A DNA stretch of 64,000 nt, taken from contig NZ_VLKE01000001.1 in NCBI RefSeq assembly GCF_007830265.1, positions 1,364,001-1,428,000 on the forward strand, written 5' to 3'. Made by a program: the position numbers and the translations under genes. This document shows, piece by piece, positions 12,411 to 46,908 of this stretch; the stretch's first letter is position 1; each line of letters opens with the position of its first letter. A model generated the notes under the pieces. The model did not search any database. It saw only the letters and a list, made by a program, of their open reading frames with translations, and was not told where the DNA came from. Origin of the DNA: Micromonospora olivasterospora (GTDB lineage: Bacteria > Actinomycetota > Actinomycetes > Mycobacteriales > Micromonosporaceae).

Positions 12411-12652
12411 GTCGCCTCGGTCCTCTCGTCGGTGGTCGCCGGGTCGCCGTACGCCGGCCGCGCGGGATGCGCGCCGGGCTCGGGCGTGAACCGGAACCAG
12501 TGGCCGATTGACCAGTGTGCCATGGGCGTGAGCCGACCCGGTAGGCGGGCCGCACAGCGGGTCCGGCCTCGTCAACGCACCCGCGCCCCTGAGCATTCCC
12601 GCCCGGCCGGGGGCACATTCCTCCGCCGCCCGTGGCCGGACGCGCCCCGGCG

Positions 12653-12664: not shown

Positions 12665-13600
12665 GTGTCCGGTTCGCCCGAGAAACCGGCCGCGACGCGG
12701 CGGCCGCCCCGGCTGATCGCCACCCGGGGGCTGCCCGCCTCGGGCAAGACCACCTTCGCCCGCACCCTCCAGCCCTCGGTGGTCCGGGTGAACCGGGACG
12801 ACCTGCGCCGCATGCTGCACGGCGAGCGGCTGTTCACCCAGTGGGCGGAGGCCCAGGTCACCCGGGCGCAACGGGCGCAGGTGGAGGCGCTGCTGCGGGG
12901 CCGGGTCAGCGTGTGCGTGGACGACACCAACCTGCGCGCCCGGACGCTGCGGGACTGGGCGCGGCTGGCCGCCGACTGCGGGGCCGGCTTCGAGGTGCAC
13001 GACTTCACCGACGTACCCCTGGACGAGTGCCTGCGCCGGGACGCCGCGCGGCCGGAGGCCGACCGGGTGGGCGAGGAGGCGATCCGGCGGCTGCACCACC
13101 GCTACCTGGCCGACCGGCCGCTGCCGCTGCCGGTGCCGGAGGTCGCCCCCGGCGGCCCGGCCCGGGTGCACGACGCGCGGGGCGGGCCGCCGGAGATCGT
13201 CCTGGTGGACATCGACGGCACCGTGGCGCTGAACGTCTCCCGCAGCCCGTACGACATGACCCGGGTGGGTGAGGACGTGCCGAACGATGCGGTGATCGCG
13301 GCGGTCCGGGCGATGCACGCCGCCGGGTACGGGGTGGTGTTCTGCTCCGGCCGGGACGCCTCGGCCCGGGCCGACACCGTGGCCTGGCTCGCCCGGCACG
13401 TCCGGGTGCCCTACCTGGCCCTGCACCTGCGCGCGATCGGCGACTCCCGCAAGGACGCCGTCGTCAAGCGCGAGATCTACGAACGGGAGATCCGGCCCCG
13501 CTACCGGGTGGCCGGGGTCTTCGACGACCGGATGCAGGTGGTCCGGATGTGGCGCGCCCTCGGCCTGACGGTCTTCCAGGTGGCCGAGGGCGACTTCTGA
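12665..13600 (+). CDS. Bifunctional polynucleotide kinase/phosphatase-like protein (AAA kinase + HAD)
   Basis: This 311-residue protein has an N-terminal P-loop kinase domain ([11 protein letters not shown], about 20-30; [14 protein letters not shown] downstream) and a C-terminal HAD phosphatase domain (DIDGTVALN near residue 180; [12 protein letters not shown]; final [11 protein letters not shown]). The same order occurs in T4 polynucleotide kinase, which heals RNA or DNA ends by adding 5' phosphate and removing 3' phosphate. No ligase or 2'-phosphotransferase partner is adjacent, so an end-repair role is inference. The GTG at 12665 was chosen for its promoter geometry. Confidence 0.82.
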
Positions 13601-13634
13601 GCAGGGCCCCCTGTCGCGCCAGGGTGCCCTGCTC
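13599..13634. terminator. Bidirectional hairpin between convergent genes
   Basis: GAGCAGGGC (13599-13607) pairs with GCCCTGCTC (13626-13634), and an inner CCCT/AGGG extends the stem. It overlaps the stop of the kinase gene and lies just after the glycosidase remnant on the other strand. Confidence 0.5.
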
Positions 13635-13639
13635 AGGTC

Positions 13640-14767
13640 TCAGGCGGCCGGGGCCGCCGCGGCCTCGGTGAGGGCGACGGTGGCCTCGGCGCGTTCGCCG
13701 TTGACCGCCACCGCCAGCACGACCGTGGCGCCGGGGCGCAGGGCGGTCAGCTCGCCGGTCGCCGGGTCGAAGCCGGCGACGTGCCAGGGGCCAGCAGCGT
13801 GGACGAGCCGCCGCCGTCGAGGTTCAGCGCGTTCCAGGCCCCGAGTTCGGCCATCATCCGGCCGGCCTCAATCTGGGTCACGCCCCGGCTGTCCGCCTGC
13901 CGACCGTCCACGGTGAGCATGATCATCCGCCGGCCGTCGGCGGAGAAGCCGACCGCGGTGCGCGGCGCGAGGCTCGCGTCGGCGATGCTCTGCACCACCC
14001 CGTCGCGGACCAGCACGCTGCCGCCGCCGACCGCCGCGCGCAGGCCGCCGCCGTCCGACGGCTTCGGCCGCCAGGTCACGTCGACCGGGTCTCCCGGCCG
14101 CAGCCCGGCGAGCGCGTCCGCCCCGGCGTCCCGGCCCAGCAGGATGGTCGTGCCGGCGGCGATCGGCCCGCTGCCGGCCGCCCGGGTCACGCGGTCCACC
14201 CGGCCGCCGACCACGGCGACCTCGGTGACGCGGGCCGCGCCGGCCACCGCCCGCTCCCGGGCGTACGTCCCCCAGAGCGCGGTGAAAACGCCGACGCCGC
14301 CCGCCTGGATCATGTTGTTGAACTGGGTGAGGGTGACGGGACCCGTGGGCAGGGTGGCGGTGCCGTCGAAGTGCACCTGGATCACCCGGCCCAGCCCCTC
14401 GGCGTCGATCGCGACGGCGTTGGTGTGCCCGGCCACCGGCGACTGGACCAGTTCACCGGCGCGGACGCCGATCCCCTGCGCCGCGCCGGAGTTGTTGATG
14501 TCGAAGAAGTCGCCGTTGACCGCGGCGACGGCCCGGGAGCGGTCCACCGCGCCGCGCAACGGCTCGGCCTTCGTCACCGCACCCGAGTTGACGTAGTCCA
14601 CGGTCACCCCGCCGGCGAGGTCGGCGGTCAGCGCGTCGGCGCGCAGCCAGCCGTCGGCGTCGTACCGGTCGAGGGCCGGCCGTCGCCGGCACGGGGCCGG
14701 CCATGGTGAGCAGCGGCGTCAGCAGCAGGACGCCGGCGAGGTGGGCAGATCGTCTGCGGGTGCGCAT
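13640..14767 (-). pseudogene. Decayed phosphodiester glycosidase-family secreted protein
   Basis: Three pieces lie in different frames. Codons from 14767 give a signal peptide (MRTRRRSAHLAGVLLLTPLL). Near 14670 the frame shifts, and homology resumes with DRYDADGWLRADALTAD. The main body (NAGPA/phosphodiester glycosidase domain, ending NLDGGGSSTLLA) then stops near 13790 in frame, while the next frame continues with HVAGFDPATGELTALRPG to the stop at 13640. Family members usually carry extra sequence at both junctions, so small deletions probably caused both shifts. Function is lost unless the assembly is wrong here. Confidence 0.75.
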
Positions 14768-41722: not shown

Positions 41723-42628
41723 TCAGCCGGGGAGGCTGACGGTGCGGCCCTCGGCGCGGGCGGTCTCGGCGGCGTCGAGGACGGCCGCCACCTCCCGGCC
41801 GAACCGGACGTCGCAGCGGTGGTCCCGGGTGCCCGCGTCGATCTCCTCCAGCAACTGCTCGATCGCGGTCCCGTACGCGATCAGCGCGTTGCCGTCGCCG
41901 GGGGGCACGCTCTGCATGCCGTCGTCGCCGAAGAAGACCACGTCGCGGATGATGGCCGCCGGCGGCGCGTCCAGGGTGAGCGAGACGGTGCTGGTCGCCC
42001 CGCCGTCGTGGGTGAGCAGCAGGTGGATCAGCCCCCGGGGGCCGTCCGCCGCGGCGACCCGGCTCACCCGGCCGAGCACCGGCAGGATCAGTGACAGGGC
42101 GTGCGGCCCGATGTCCCACAGCGCGCCGCGCTCCCGCCGCCACTGCGACCCGCCGTACGGGCTGTCGGGCTGGAAGATCGACGCGAACATCGTCGCCCGG
42201 GCGTGCTGCCAGCCGCCGGCCGCCGCGGCCGAGGCGAGGAACCCGGTCACGTTCGGGTGGAAGCGCTGGGTGAAGAAGACCACCGAGGCGACCCCGGACT
42301 GCTGGGCGGCGGTGACCACCCGGTCGGCGTCGGCCAGGCTGAGCGCCAGCGGCTTGTCCAGCAGCAGGTGCCGGCCGGCCGCGGCGGCCCGGACGGCGAT
42401 GTCGGCCTGCACGTCCGGCGGGAGCGCCACGGCGATCGCGTCGCAGGCGTCGATCAGCGCGTCGACGTCGGCGAAGGCGGGCACCCCGTGCCGGTCGGCC
42501 AGCGCGGCGGCCCGCTCGGCGTTGCGGCCCCACACCCCCGCCAGCGCGGCGCGGGGATGCGCGTCGATGGCCGCCGCGTGCGTCTCCGCCGCCCAGTGGC
42601 CGGTGCCGAACAACCCGAACCGCAGCAC
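41723..42628 (-). CDS. Gfo/Idh/MocA-family oxidoreductase
   Basis: This 301-residue NAD(P)-dependent sugar-type dehydrogenase starts with the Rossmann motif MLRFGLFGTGHWAAETHA and has the family lysine motif DKPLAL (usual form EKP), followed by the C-terminal alpha/beta domain (LTHDGGATSTVSLTLDAPP). The substrate cannot be predicted. The IS200/IS605-type element ends immediately upstream of its start, so its original promoter may have been displaced; two hairpins lie 25-76 bases upstream. Confidence 0.9.
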   Translation of the reverse strand: MLRFGLFGTGHWAAETHAAAIDAHPRAALAGVWGRNAERAAALADRHGVPAFADVDALIDACDAIAVALPPDVQADIAVRAAAAGRHLLLDKPLALSLADADRVVTAAQQSGVASVVFFTQRFHPNVTGFLASAAAAGGWQHARATMFASIFQPDSPYGGSQWRRERGALWDIGPHALSLILPVLGRVSRVAAADGPRGLIHLLLTHDGGATSTVSLTLDAPPAAIIRDVVFFGDDGMQSVPPGDGNALIAYGTAIEQLLEEIDAGTRDHRCDVRFGREVAAVLDAAETARAEGRTVSLPG

Positions 42629-42652
42629 GAGGAACTCCCGGTGTCGTCGTCC

Positions 42653-42704
42653 GCCACGGCGATCCCGTGGCCTGATCCGAACTCCGCCACGGCGAGCCCG
42701 TGGC
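42653..42704. repeat. Two tandem hairpins at the tnpB 3' end
   Basis: GCCACGG-cgatc-CCGTGGC (42653-42671) and GCCACGG-cgagc-CCGTGGC (42686-42704) are identical seven-base stems with five-base loops. They lie in a near-perfect 33-base duplication between tnpB and the Gfo/Idh gene. They could be element-end hairpins recognised by TnpA, or part of a guide RNA scaffold. Confidence 0.6.
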
Positions 42705-42774
42705 CGTGATCCAACCTAGTCCTCGGGCCCGTCCCGTGCAGCCACGGCAGCGGAACGGCACGGATCGGCGGGCG

Positions 42775-43598
42775 GGGCGAACCCGCCTCCGGGAGGGTCG
42801 CGTTGGTTGCGGCGTGGTCGAGGTGCCCGCACGAGGTACAGGTGAACGCGACGCCGTGACGGGAGCGGGGGTCACGGTGCCCGCAGGTTGAGCACGTTTG
42901 CGACGTGTACGCTGCTGGCACTTTCAGCAGTTGCCCGCCCCGCTCGGCCAGCTTGTACGCCAGCAGTTCAACGGTGCGTGCGTGGGCCTCGTTGAGCATG
43001 ACCCGGTTCAGCCCGGCCTTCTGCCGCACGTTGCGGCCCGGCTCGGCGATGGTGCCTCTCGCAGAGCGGGTCATGTTTTCCACCCGCAGTTCTTCCACCG
43101 CCACGATGCCGTACCTTCCGGCGATGGTCGTGGTGGTCTTGTGCTGCCAGTCGTAGCGGCGGCGCTTGGCTCTCGCGCGTGACCCCGCGATCTGGTCGTA
43201 GGTGCGGTGCAGACGGTTCGACGTACGCTCGAACGGATTGCGGGCCCGCTTCTGCCGGGCGGCCTTGCGTTCCAGCCGCTGCAGCCGTGCCGGGGATCGG
43301 CCCGGACCAGCGGAACCGGACCACGCCGGCTTTCGGGATGCGCACCTGACCGACGCGGCGGGACAGGCGGGTGATCGCGAGGTCTCGTCCCTGCGGCACG
43401 TCAACGGACATGCGTGACCGTAGGCGGGCTTTGAACTCCGGTGCGCACGCCCGGCCTTCCCAGCAGTTTCTCCACGCCCGCACGTACGTTTTCAACACCT
43501 GCCGTGCGGCCTGCGCGGGCAGGGTTGCCCGGGCCGCGTGGCCCTGAATGTCGAGTGCGGCGGCCTGCTCCGCAGTGGGGGCGAGACGACGTACGTAT
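42775..43598 (-). pseudogene. TnpB (IS605 OrfB) main fragment, interrupted and deleted
   Basis: Reading leftward from the IS4 junction: LAPTAEQAAALDIQGHAARA and MSVDVPQGRDLAITRLSRRV belong to the TnpB N-domain. Near 43300 the frame changes and about 70 residues, including the expected RuvC-I aspartate region, are missing. The rest follows as QKRARNPFERTSNRLHRTYD, the RuvC-II glutamate in VAVEELRVENM, and the zinc ribbon CSTCG...CTSCG. No stop follows the ribbon. The protein cannot be an active RNA-guided nuclease. Its first eleven codons (GTG at 46133) lie beyond the IS4 insertion. Confidence 0.85.
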
Positions 43599-44431
43599 CA
43601 ACACCGTTGCGTTTAGCGCCGTGAGCGGGAGGCAAGCCCCTTTTCGAAGATTGTGATGTCGGCGTGGAAGGTGTAGGTCTGCGTGGTTGCGGGGTGCTGT
43701 CCGGCGTTCGGGCTGTACTTGCTGGTCGGGTTCTTGCGGGAGCGGGCCTTGATTCGAGGGCGGCGCCAGGCGGGTAGGAGGTCGGCCAGCGCGGCGTGGC
43801 CTATCGTGCCGAGGAGGTCGGTTGAGCTGCCGGGAAGGATTCCGCTGGCGGTGGTGATCGTGTCGGCGGCGGCGTCGATGAGGATGGTGAAGCTGATCCG
43901 GTCCATGTCCAGGCCGGGCTGGGTGCAGGTGGCGTCTGCTGCCGCGCGGATGAGGGCCTGGTAGGCGGTGAGCAGGGCGTACACCTCCTGCTCGATCCCG
44001 GGGATGCTGCGGGAGCGCAGGACGCGGCCGTCGAGCATGGTCGCTTTGATCGAGAAGTACGTGGTTTCGGCCTGCCAGCGTTCGTGGTAGAGGTCCACGA
44101 GTTCGTGGGCGGGGTAGCGGGTGTGGTCTGTCAGGCTGGTGATCAGCCGCCACTGCTCGCGCCGCAGGCTGCCGTCGGCCAGTGTGACGGTGACCTGCGC
44201 TTCGATGACCCGCACCAGGATGAGAGCGGGTAGGCTGCCGTAGCCGATGCGGGCCAGGTAGGAGCCGTCGGGTAGGCGACGCTGGATGGTCGGGCAGCGG
44301 CGGGCGGATGAGCGGACCAGGAACTGCGCGCCGGTGGCGCCGACGTCGCGCAGGAATTCCGCGGCGTCGAAGCCGGCGTCGGCCAGCAGCAGCATCGTGC
44401 GGTCCAGGACGCCCAGAAGCCGCCGCGCGTA

Positions 44432-45401
44432 AGAGCCCGCGCAAATAGGTCAGACGCGCTGCCCCAGATACGAGGCGGGCACGGACATCCATGATCATGA
44501 AGGTGCTTACGCCTCGTGATCGCCAGGAGTGTCCGTGCCCGTTGTTCCATCATGGCTGATGACCCCGCTGTGGGACCAGTTCGCCGCGCTGTTGCCCGAG
44601 CGGCCGCGGGTTGATCCGTCGCATCCGCTGGGGTGTCACCGGCCGCGGGTGGCGGATCGGCTGATATTCGAGAAGTTGTTGCAGGTGCTGCGGTTCGGGT
44701 GTGCGTACGAGTCGATCGCGGACAGTGGTTGTTCGGCGACGACGATCCGGAACCGGCGTGACGAGTGGATCACGCTGGGCGTGTTCGAACAATTGAAGGC
44801 CATCGTATTGGACACCTATGACCGGATTGTCGGACTGATTCTGGACGATATCTCGGTGGACGGGTGTATCACCAAGGCTCCCGGTGGCGGTGAGGTCGCC
44901 GGCCGGTCTCCGGTCGACCGGGGCAAGCAGGGGATGAAACGCTCCAGCATGGTCGAGGCCCGGGGGATCCCTCTCGACCGGGTTCTGGCCGGCGCGAACC
45001 GTCATGATTCACCACTACTGGCGTCTACTCTGGACAAGCTGGATGTGTTCGGTCCGCTGCCGGAGAAGGTGACAGTACACCTGGACGCCGGCTACGACTC
45101 GGCGGTCACCCGCGAGCTTCTGGCCGGCCGTAACCTGCACGCCGAAATAGCCCATAAGGGCGACAAAGCACCCATCCAGGCGGGCCGCAGGTGGCATGTC
45201 GAGCGGACGAACGCCTGGCACAACGCCTTCAACCGCCTGCAACGCTGCTACGAACGCCGAGAACGCGTCATCGACGCGTTCTTCGACCTCGCCGACGCGA
45301 TCATCACTCTACGTAGCCTGATCCGGCAGGCATGGACCCTCTACCGCTGGGACAACCGTCCCACCCGGCGCCCATGATCTTGACCTATCTGCGCGACCTC
45401 T
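44432..45401 (+). mobile_element. Intact IS5-family (IS427-group-like) insertion sequence, 970 bp
   Basis: Terminal inverted repeats are GAGCCCGCGCAAATAGGTCA at the left and, reading inward from the right end, GAGGTCGCGCAGATAGGTCA (three mismatches in 20). It is flanked by TAA on both sides (44429-44431 and 45402-45404), a TNA duplication as expected for this group. It carries one complete transposase gene and lies in the opposite orientation to the IS4 transposase that it splits. Confidence 0.93.
44535..45377 (+). CDS. IS5-family DDE transposase
   Basis: This 280-residue protein appears intact. It has an N-terminal DUF4096-like domain (TPLWDQFAALLPERPRVDPS) and a DDE domain with ILDDISVDGCITKAPGGGEV (first Asp), TVHLDAGYDSAV (second Asp) and WHVERTNAWHNAF (Glu). 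It ends RWDNRPTRRP, 24 bases before the right inverted repeat. GTG 44535 has AGGAG five bases upstream; GTG 44529 would add two residues but overlaps the ribosome site. With clean ends and target duplications the element may still move. Confidence 0.93.
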   Translation: MPVVPSWLMTPLWDQFAALLPERPRVDPSHPLGCHRPRVADRLIFEKLLQVLRFGCAYESIADSGCSATTIRNRRDEWITLGVFEQLKAIVLDTYDRIVGLILDDISVDGCITKAPGGGEVAGRSPVDRGKQGMKRSSMVEARGIPLDRVLAGANRHDSPLLASTLDKLDVFGPLPEKVTVHLDAGYDSAVTRELLAGRNLHAEIAHKGDKAPIQAGRRWHVERTNAWHNAFNRLQRCYERRERVIDAFFDLADAIITLRSLIRQAWTLYRWDNRPTRRP

Positions 45402-46129
45402 AAGCCAGTTCGCCTTCTGTTTCGGGGCCGAAGGCCGCGGCGAGCAGGGCGCGGGTCCCACACTCGATCACCACGAGCAGCCGTAGCAGCGGGTAGCCGA
45501 ACTCCAGCTTGTCTCCTACGCGTTTGGGGTAGCGCCAGGTGACCCGTTCCTCGTCGGGCACGTGCAGGTGGGTGCCGTCGATGGCCACGGTACGCAGGCC
45601 CCGGTAGAACACGCCGGGCTGGCCGAGCAGACCGACGGCACCGGCCAGGGTCTCGAACAGGCGCCGTAGCGGCGCTACTCCGACCCGGCGGCGAGCGCGT
45701 GACAGTGAGGAGATACTCGGCCGCGTCAGGCACAAGCCGGCCAGGGCCGCGGTCAGCTTCCCCCACGTCGCTCGGTAGGAACAGCGGTCGAGCAGGGCGA
45801 GTGCGAGGACGAAGTACACCACGACCCGAGACGGCAGCAGCCGCAGCCGCTTCTCGCGTGTCCCGGTTTCTTCCAGCACCGCGTCGACCAGGTCGAAGTC
45901 GATGATCTGGGTCAACTCGCCCAGATGTCCGGGCGCGTGCACACCCCCGGCTACCTCGATCGACCGGGTGATGACAGACTTCTCCTGCAACGGGACTCCT
46001 GAGGCATGATCTTCTTGCTCGACACAAGTTGATCTATCAGAAGTCCCGTTCGCGTCTTCAAAGTCCCCCTTGACTCATCCGCCGATCGCCAAACGCAACG
46101 GCGTTGACGTACGTATCCGTGGTTGATCT

Positions 46130-46432
46130 TCACGACGCGACTCTCTTCCTCCACGGCCGCTCCCACTGGGTTTCGATGTACCTCTGGATGGTGACGGCGG
46201 ACACGTTGCCGACCGACGACACGAAGTACGACCGGGACCACAGGGTTGGCAGCCGGCTGCGCAGGTGAGAGAACTCGTCGCGAAGCACCCGCGAGGTGAA
46301 GCCCTTGAACTGGTTCGCGATGTACGACGGCGAAGCGTTCGGGTCGGCCCGGACGAACAGGTGCACGTGGTCCACGAACCTAGTATACGCATGGCACATA
46401 ACTAACAGAGCAGCATCAGGGCAGCGATTCAC
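46130..46432 (-). pseudogene. TnpA (IS200-type Y1 transposase), 5'-truncated
   Basis: This 100-residue fragment carries the HUH motif (DHVHLFVRADP), QFKGFTSRVLRDEF, LPTLWSRSYFVSSVGNVS and the catalytic tyrosine in IQRYIETQWERP. Relatives have about 50-60 more residues before the HUH motif; here only MNRCPDAALLVMCHAYTRF precedes it, so the N-terminus is lost. Its stop overlaps the tnpB GTG (46133) as GTGA, the usual coupling. The element is probably immobile. Confidence 0.8.
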
Positions 46433-46471
46433 CTGCCGCCTGGAGACGGCAGCCCTCTCGCCTCAAATCGG

Positions 46472-46477
46472 TAGGCT
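46472..46477 (+). promoter_or_regulatory. -10 box giving a leaderless start at 46484
   Basis: TAGGCT lies exactly at -12 to -7 from the ATG at 46484. That ATG opens an eleven-codon frame (MTETPTGCRR, stop) whose stop overlaps the ATG of the membrane-protein gene at 46513. Confidence 0.4.
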
Positions 46478-46483
46478 GTCCCG

Positions 46484-46516
46484 ATGACCGAGACTCCGAC
46501 GGGGTGCCGTCGATGA
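46484..46516 (+). CDS. Short upstream open reading frame (10 residues)
   Basis: The frame encodes MTETPTGCRR and ends in TGA overlapping the next ATG as ATGA. With a -10 box placed for leaderless transcription it may be translated and couple initiation at 46513. It could equally be the true N-terminus of the next gene, thrown out of frame by an indel. Confidence 0.35.
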   Translation: MTETPTGCRR

Positions 46517-46908
46517 CCAGCGCGGCGGCGTCCGCCTCGCCGGTGGACGGGGCCCTCGCGACGGCGACGATCGTGCTGTCGCTCGTACTCGCGGTGTGGG
46601 CCCTGGTGGCGGCGGCGCGCAACCGGCCGCCGGACCGGGCGCAGTTCGCCGGCCTGGCCCTGCTGGAGCTGGGCCTGCTCGCGTTGGCGGCGGTGGCGCT
46701 CGCCGCCCTCGGCGGCGGCGAGTCGCCGGGCGAGCCCGGCGCGTTCTTCGGGTACCTGGTGACGCTGGTCTGCCTGCCGCCGCTGGCCTGGGTGCTGGCC
46801 CGGATGGAGCCGACCCGGTGGGGCTCGGCGATCGTCTGCGCGATCTGCCTGGTGGCCCCGGTCGTGGTGGTCCGGCTCCAGCAGACCTGGGAGGCCGTCG
46901 GTGGTTGA
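46513..46908 (+). CDS. Four-helix membrane protein of unknown function
   Basis: This 131-residue hydrophobic protein (MTSAAASASPVDGALATATI) has helices at about 17-38, 48-68, 78-98 and 103-122 and no motif I recognise. It is probably co-transcribed with the following gene, whose GTG overlaps its stop by eight bases. Both genes appear native to the chromosome and lie just outside the nested insertion sequences. The start choice (ATG 46513 rather than GTG 46504) follows the ATGA overlap with the short upstream frame. Confidence 0.6.
   Translation: MTSAAASASPVDGALATATIVLSLVLAVWALVAAARNRPPDRAQFAGLALLELGLLALAAVALAALGGGESPGEPGAFFGYLVTLVCLPPLAWVLARMEPTRWGSAIVCAICLVAPVVVVRLQQTWEAVGG

Follow-up and report, generated by a model that had tools for sequence, protein, structure and literature searches.

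How three insertion sequences (ISs) came to lie one inside another, and whether the outermost was still whole when it was hit, is the question raised by this locus of Micromonospora olivasterospora. The window, by which we mean the whole stretch of 64,000 nucleotides analysed, corresponds to C1:1364001-1428000 in a two-contig genome of 7.07 Mb, and the nest sits in it between a minus-strand oxidoreductase gene and a plus-strand small conserved gene, which form a divergent pair. The bottom layer is an IS605-type element, the middle layer an IS4-family element and the top layer an IS5-family element (Table 1). The original prediction gave these families, this nesting and the order IS605, IS4, IS5, and all three agree with natural uninterrupted copies; the target repeats and those copies together show the order of insertion. 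The same prediction pictured a simple tnpA-tnpB element split by IS4, and here it has to be revised, because deletions have reduced the bottom layer to a relic that lacks its right end. Insertion of ISs into one another is well known and such nests are ordinary in bacteria, and the nest in the window is a new instance of them.

The top layer is the simplest to read. Its transposase scored 162.6 bits against NF033580 (cut-off, 110), which identifies it as IS5-type, and a 3-bp T(A/T)A target repeat flanks every full copy in the genome (5/5; 7 partial matches were left out of the count). The window copy is identical to three of the four other full copies and differs from the fourth at 1 position. 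From the TNA target, we presume that it belongs to the IS1031 group. The predicted TAA repeat is present at the window copy, but the positions proposed for it (44429 and 45402) and for the segment to be excised (44432-45404) were one base off. When 151 genomes sampled from the genus were searched, this one among them, 60 gave some match to IS5, in many cases a short one; outside the genome itself, the best-scoring match listed was 78% identical (150 genomes, 3 candidates scored in each).

When IS5 and one TAA are removed, the middle layer measures 1537 bp and differs from the commonest natural IS4 copy at 2 positions. Both differences occur in another natural copy (L024), one of them also in a further copy (L015), and IS4 therefore closes exactly, as had been claimed; the peptide GELAYARRLL that had been given for the closed junction is found within an open frame of 496 codons in an uninterrupted copy (L019). 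There are 12 IS4 copies in the genome at 98-100% identity, a count that leaves out 16 matches to a related but different IS (69-70% identity, 171-240 bp), and 11 of the 12 are continuous through the IS5 site. The boundaries of the window element match those of the 11 other copies. Its inverted ends are imperfect, as had been noted (CAACACCGTTGCG / CAACGCCGTTGCG), with arms 90% complementary over 21 nt, and the 10-bp target repeat that had been placed on either side of it proved exact. The 12 copies occupy 7 different sites, 6 of them sharing one site within an IS21-type element, and at these independent sites a 10-bp repeat is exact in 6 of 7 and agrees at 9 of 10 positions in the remaining one; the regularity of these repeats, like that of the IS5 repeats, exceeds what chance would give. 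A 12-bp repeat (GACGTACGTATC) would fit the window copy too; it was rejected since the other copies share CAAC...GTTG ends and 10-bp repeats. Matches to PF13006 (1.2e-27) and PF01609 (6.4e-11) identify the transposase as IS4-type. Its two pieces scored 78 and 60.7 bits against NF033592, under the whole-protein cut-off of 115, as is expected because each is only half of the protein. Some match to IS4 was found in 128 of the 151 genomes, mostly short, and the best full-length match listed elsewhere is 87% identical, in one genome with two copies (150 genomes, 2 candidates scored in each). Closer copies of either IS4 or IS5 in the other sampled genomes are unlikely. IS4 has probably been active recently, and for both elements it is the identical copies that point to transposition activity.

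The bottom layer could be compared with five other IS605-type copies or fragments in the genome, at C1:127k, 4151k, 5457k, 5953k and 6228k (c127k and so on below; one 40-bp match, L042, was left out). The stretch targeted by IS4 is single and uninterrupted in all four siblings that span the site, with identical letters in c127k and c5457k and one base different in c4151k and c6228k. The claim that removal of IS4 restores the tnpB frame exactly holds locally, where VKINHGYVRRLAP is read across the insertion point without a break, and fails for the gene as a whole. Relative to the siblings, tnpB has lost 117 bp net at ~43524 in frame and 212 bp at ~43289 with a shift of frame, and nothing is left beyond ~42782, where the 3′ end of the gene and the right end of the element have gone; tnpA has lost 174 bp at ~46372 in frame. 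The 212-bp deletion removes the stretch VGIDRGVNVALALSDG, which we take to be RuvC-I of TnpB, and the window TnpB lacks this stretch where the siblings have it. With these deletions and the lost end, the relic therefore makes neither TnpA nor TnpB whole and is without an end needed for movement.

The ancestry of the relic is nevertheless clear. The Y1_Tnp match of its TnpA covers positions 51-121 of 121 (5.4e-22), vs. 2-121 (2.8e-41) in c127k, the only sibling with both ends and both frames open. Its TnpB retains a TNB domain (7.5e-17) and scored 100.5 bits against guided_TnpB NF040570 (cut-off, 100), vs. 54.6 against the narrower NF038281 IS200_TnpB, far under the cut-off of 425. Insertion 3′ of a short target is seen in the siblings, where CTAC precedes all three complete left ends; the window copy has lost the right junction at which the absence of a target repeat would be read. 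Subterminal hairpins at both ends were not found in the window copy, as its left end, though kept and able to form a hairpin, folds no better than shuffled sequences (z −0.59) and its right end is absent, and the copy is therefore a relic of IS605 and not a working member. The right end of c127k is present and folds with a hairpin z of −2.60. Damage is also seen in four of the five siblings, c6228k, c5953k and c4151k being deleted or truncated and c5457k carrying a 1-nt shift, which suggests that the IS605-type family decays by deletion in this genome. The loss in c6228k is a separate deletion of 519 bp with 3 nt of shared sequence at its junction.

The chromosomal site was reconstructed from relatives, using 65 of the 77 loci returned (L043-L107; the other 12, L108-L119, come from distant organisms and were left out). 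Both flanks are present in 52 of the 65 loci and lie 74-334 bp apart in 51 of these; in the other locus they are 3123 bp apart, with something else between. The motif AG[CA]CTACTAA stands at the junction in 34 of the 52 loci, and no IS605 match was found in any of the 65 (blastn, E 1e-5). Because the empty sites of relatives have CTAC too, IS605 is placed 3′ of this tetranucleotide. The sequence that follows CTAC in relatives is gone from the window, and the loss of the right end therefore removed chromosomal DNA as well. The outer limits of 42653 and 46432 that had been proposed for the nest failed on both sides, since everything left of ~42745 is chromosomal and the left end of IS605 is at 46470. 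On the left, homology to IS605-free relatives extends to 42678 in most loci by blastn and to ~42745 when 18 aligned relatives are inspected by eye; an IS605 origin of 42653-42745 was ruled out, as homologous sequence occurs in relatives without IS605.

Table 1. Features of the nest and of its chromosomal flanks (window coordinates).
Feature	Position	Strand	Basis or remark
Gfo/Idh/MocA oxidoreductase gene, chromosomal flank	41723..42628	-	Pfam PF01408, 1.9e-24; relatives in many Micromonospora records
Leader/promoter region of oxidoreductase gene, chromosomal, outside IS605	42629..42745 (limit ~42745)		Homologous to leader in relatives
Scar: IS605 right end and adjacent chromosomal DNA gone	42746..42782		Sibling homology stops at ~42782-42794; chromosomal homology stops at ~42745
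IS605 relic, 3′ part of tnpB, running into IS4 repeat copy 1	42783..43598	-	Siblings c127k, c5457k, c4151k; PF07282, 7.5e-17
IS4 10-bp target repeat ACGTACGTAT, copy 1	43589..43598		
IS4-family element with CAAC...GTTG ends; 1537 bp when IS5 and one TAA are left out	43599..46106	-	12 genome copies; PF13006, PF01609, NF033592
IS5 target repeat TAA, copy 1	44430..44432		
IS5-family element, 968 bp	44433..45400	+	5 full copies in genome; NF033580, 1.2e-47
IS5 transposase frame, 282 aa	44529-45377	+	
IS5 target repeat TAA, copy 2	45401..45403		
IS4 10-bp target repeat ACGTACGTAT, copy 2	46107..46116		
IS605 relic, tnpB start, tnpA remnant and left end with hairpin-like stretch	46107..46470	-	Sibling comparison; Y1_Tnp
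CTAC, tetranucleotide 5′ of IS605 insertion	46471..46474	-	Present in empty sites of relatives
Conserved small gene, chromosomal flank	46513..46908	+	DNA conserved beside oxidoreductase gene in relatives

Three ordinary transpositions plus decay very probably explain the nest. An IS605-type element with a Y1 transposase TnpA and a TnpB entered 3′ of CTAC between the two divergent Micromonospora genes. This copy would then have been killed by four losses: 174 bp of tnpA, 117 bp and 212 bp within tnpB, and the right end along with some of the adjacent chromosome. An IS4-family element landed in the 5′ part of the tnpB remnant, duplicating 10 bp, and finally an IS5-family element in the transposase gene of IS4, duplicating TAA. 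That the deletions may be earlier than the IS4 insertion is suggested by their absence from IS4 and IS5 and by the concentration of private letters in the relic, which has 10 in 1159 compared columns, vs. 0 in 1537 for IS4 and 0 in 968 for IS5 (Fisher p 0.0002 for IS605 vs. IS4). The three internal deletion junctions share 1, 0, and 0 nt, one of them with a 1-nt insert, and the deletions may have been made by end joining, since the genome encodes Ku.

Several points weigh against this account. Of the ten letters private to the relic, about half (columns 672, 1245, 1716, 1717, and 1727) fall within ~20 columns of a breakpoint, and 8 such letters in 1450 columns are private to the sibling c127k; the dating contrast is therefore weaker than the p-value suggests, and the numbers of comparison copies differ among the three elements. 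Four deletions that followed the IS4 insertion would still be fairly likely to have all missed IS4 by chance, so that the data suggest the order of the deletions and IS4 without proving it. Chance, too, would leave junctions that share little sequence or none, and the arrangement of the nest is taken from the assembly.

The timing of the damage is where the alternatives part. If an intact IS605 had been split by IS4 and all of its damage had come later, this would account for the place of the cut, close to the 5′ end of the tnpB remnant, and for a local frame that closes without the insert, and the loss of function caused by IS4 would have relaxed later selection. The deletions, however, are confined to the IS605 parts, IS4 and IS5 have neither deletions nor private letters, and four of the five IS605 copies without IS4 are damaged as well; we regard this course of events as improbable. 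A little less probable still is that IS605, already carrying its three internal deletions, was brought in by a full sibling acting in trans and that the right end was lost afterwards. The kept left end and the complete TnpA frame of c127k, which could act in trans, are in keeping with such an arrival, whereas no second copy with the same deletions is present among the matches in this genome. Movement by Y1 transposases requires both element ends, and the absence of the right end would thus call for one extra late step.

It could also be asked whether the nest exists at all, since each of the three elements occurs in several copies, a situation in which assemblies fail, and repeats from different places might have been misjoined. 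Against such an artefact, each insert is flanked by an exact target repeat of its own, equal in length to the repeats at the other copies of its family here, the relic is unlike all other copies found, both chromosomal flanks agree with relatives, and the genome is in 2 contigs. A misassembly is accordingly very improbable, and decay of an IS605 copy followed by the IS4 and IS5 insertions is the reading that we retain.

A second nest in the genome involves the same IS4 element. The IS21-type element that receives it (IstB, 2.1e-104; integrase core in IstA) is present in 10 copies, all at different places (4 weak matches were left out). IS4 occupies the same istA site, past the integrase core, in 6 of the 10, with the repeat CAGGTCACCA. 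These six nested copies (L136, L138, L139, L140, L141, and L142) are near-identical, with no difference among the IS4 elements inside them, while istA is open over 489 codons in the four uninterrupted copies (L134, L135, L137, and L143). IS21 target repeats are exact over 5 bp in 8 of the 10 copies and over 6 bp in L139, and none is seen at L137, so that all six nested copies are flanked by exact repeats of 5 or 6 bp. Either movement as a unit or gene conversion has spread the 4.2-kb IS21::IS4 nest; target repeats of their own would survive gene conversion and fit both routes. Nested L142 and uninterrupted L143 share a 9-bp shortening in a slippage-prone tandem repeat. We lean slightly toward an IS4 burst in which the nest itself was a mobile unit, the istA-cut IS21 having been copied to six places and now outnumbering the four uninterrupted copies. 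If so, IS21 transposase would act freely on a broken sibling, and nests could ride as passengers.

Other associations were seen. Two copies of another IS5-type element, 99.4% alike (L144:1872-2919 and 12917-13964), each bear the IS5 of the window at one end in opposite orientation, the two IS5 copies lying 11 kb apart. The IS4 copy at L015:1501-3037 directly adjoins the start of a DDE_Tnp_1_assoc transposase frame and is probably part of another nest. Among 20 frames abutting other IS4 or IS5 copies that were scanned with Pfam, 18 gave no family, many being short or possibly on the wrong strand; the other two encode an ATP-binding protein beside an IS5 copy (L001) and the transposase beside the IS4 copy at L015.

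As for the chromosomal flanks, the closest named relatives of the oxidoreductase gene are from Micromonospora. Its leader holds a 23-bp direct repeat (42650-42672 and 42683-42705, 96% alike), a hairpin-like stretch that is single-copy in the 18 aligned relatives. The small gene, whose start is placed at 46513, has no Pfam family match. The IS605 insertion adjoins a conserved intergenic stretch (46471-46490) that reads CTACTAA...GTAGTA in most of the 18 relatives and is possibly a promoter or operator of this gene; only the CTAC side is left in the window. Elsewhere in the window, an L31-Actinobacteria ribosomal protein leader was matched at 12434-12500 on the minus strand (42.5 bits).

The nest is of little importance in itself. 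Its use is as a clean example of layered ISs, every level of which has natural uninterrupted copies to check it against, and it illustrates that a relic can be mistaken for a working element when a nest is read from a single copy. The genome overall looks like one that has undergone a recent expansion of IS4, IS5, and IS21, and the frequency with which mobile elements insert into each other could be measured in it.

Compared with known systems, the two upper layers are typical of their families. IS4 resembles the PF13006-type members in its N-terminal IS4 domain, DDE domain, inverted ends, and 10-bp repeats, and IS5 resembles the NF033580-type members in its DUF4096 and DDE domains, inverted ends, and 3-bp T(A/T)A repeat, with no notable difference in either case. 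The bottom layer is like the IS605/IS608-like members of the IS200/IS605 family in having a Y1_Tnp TnpA and a TnpB in tandem and in its insertion 3′ of a tetranucleotide; the right end TCAA of its siblings and the hairpin near the right end of one of them are alike as well, and CTAC/TCAA of these elements resembles TTAC/TCAA of IS608. The window copy differs from that family in lacking the right end, the RuvC-I stretch, and the N-terminal part of TnpA. Relative to other nested ISs, what sets this one apart is that each level has a natural uninterrupted counterpart, either in the same genome or in relatives.

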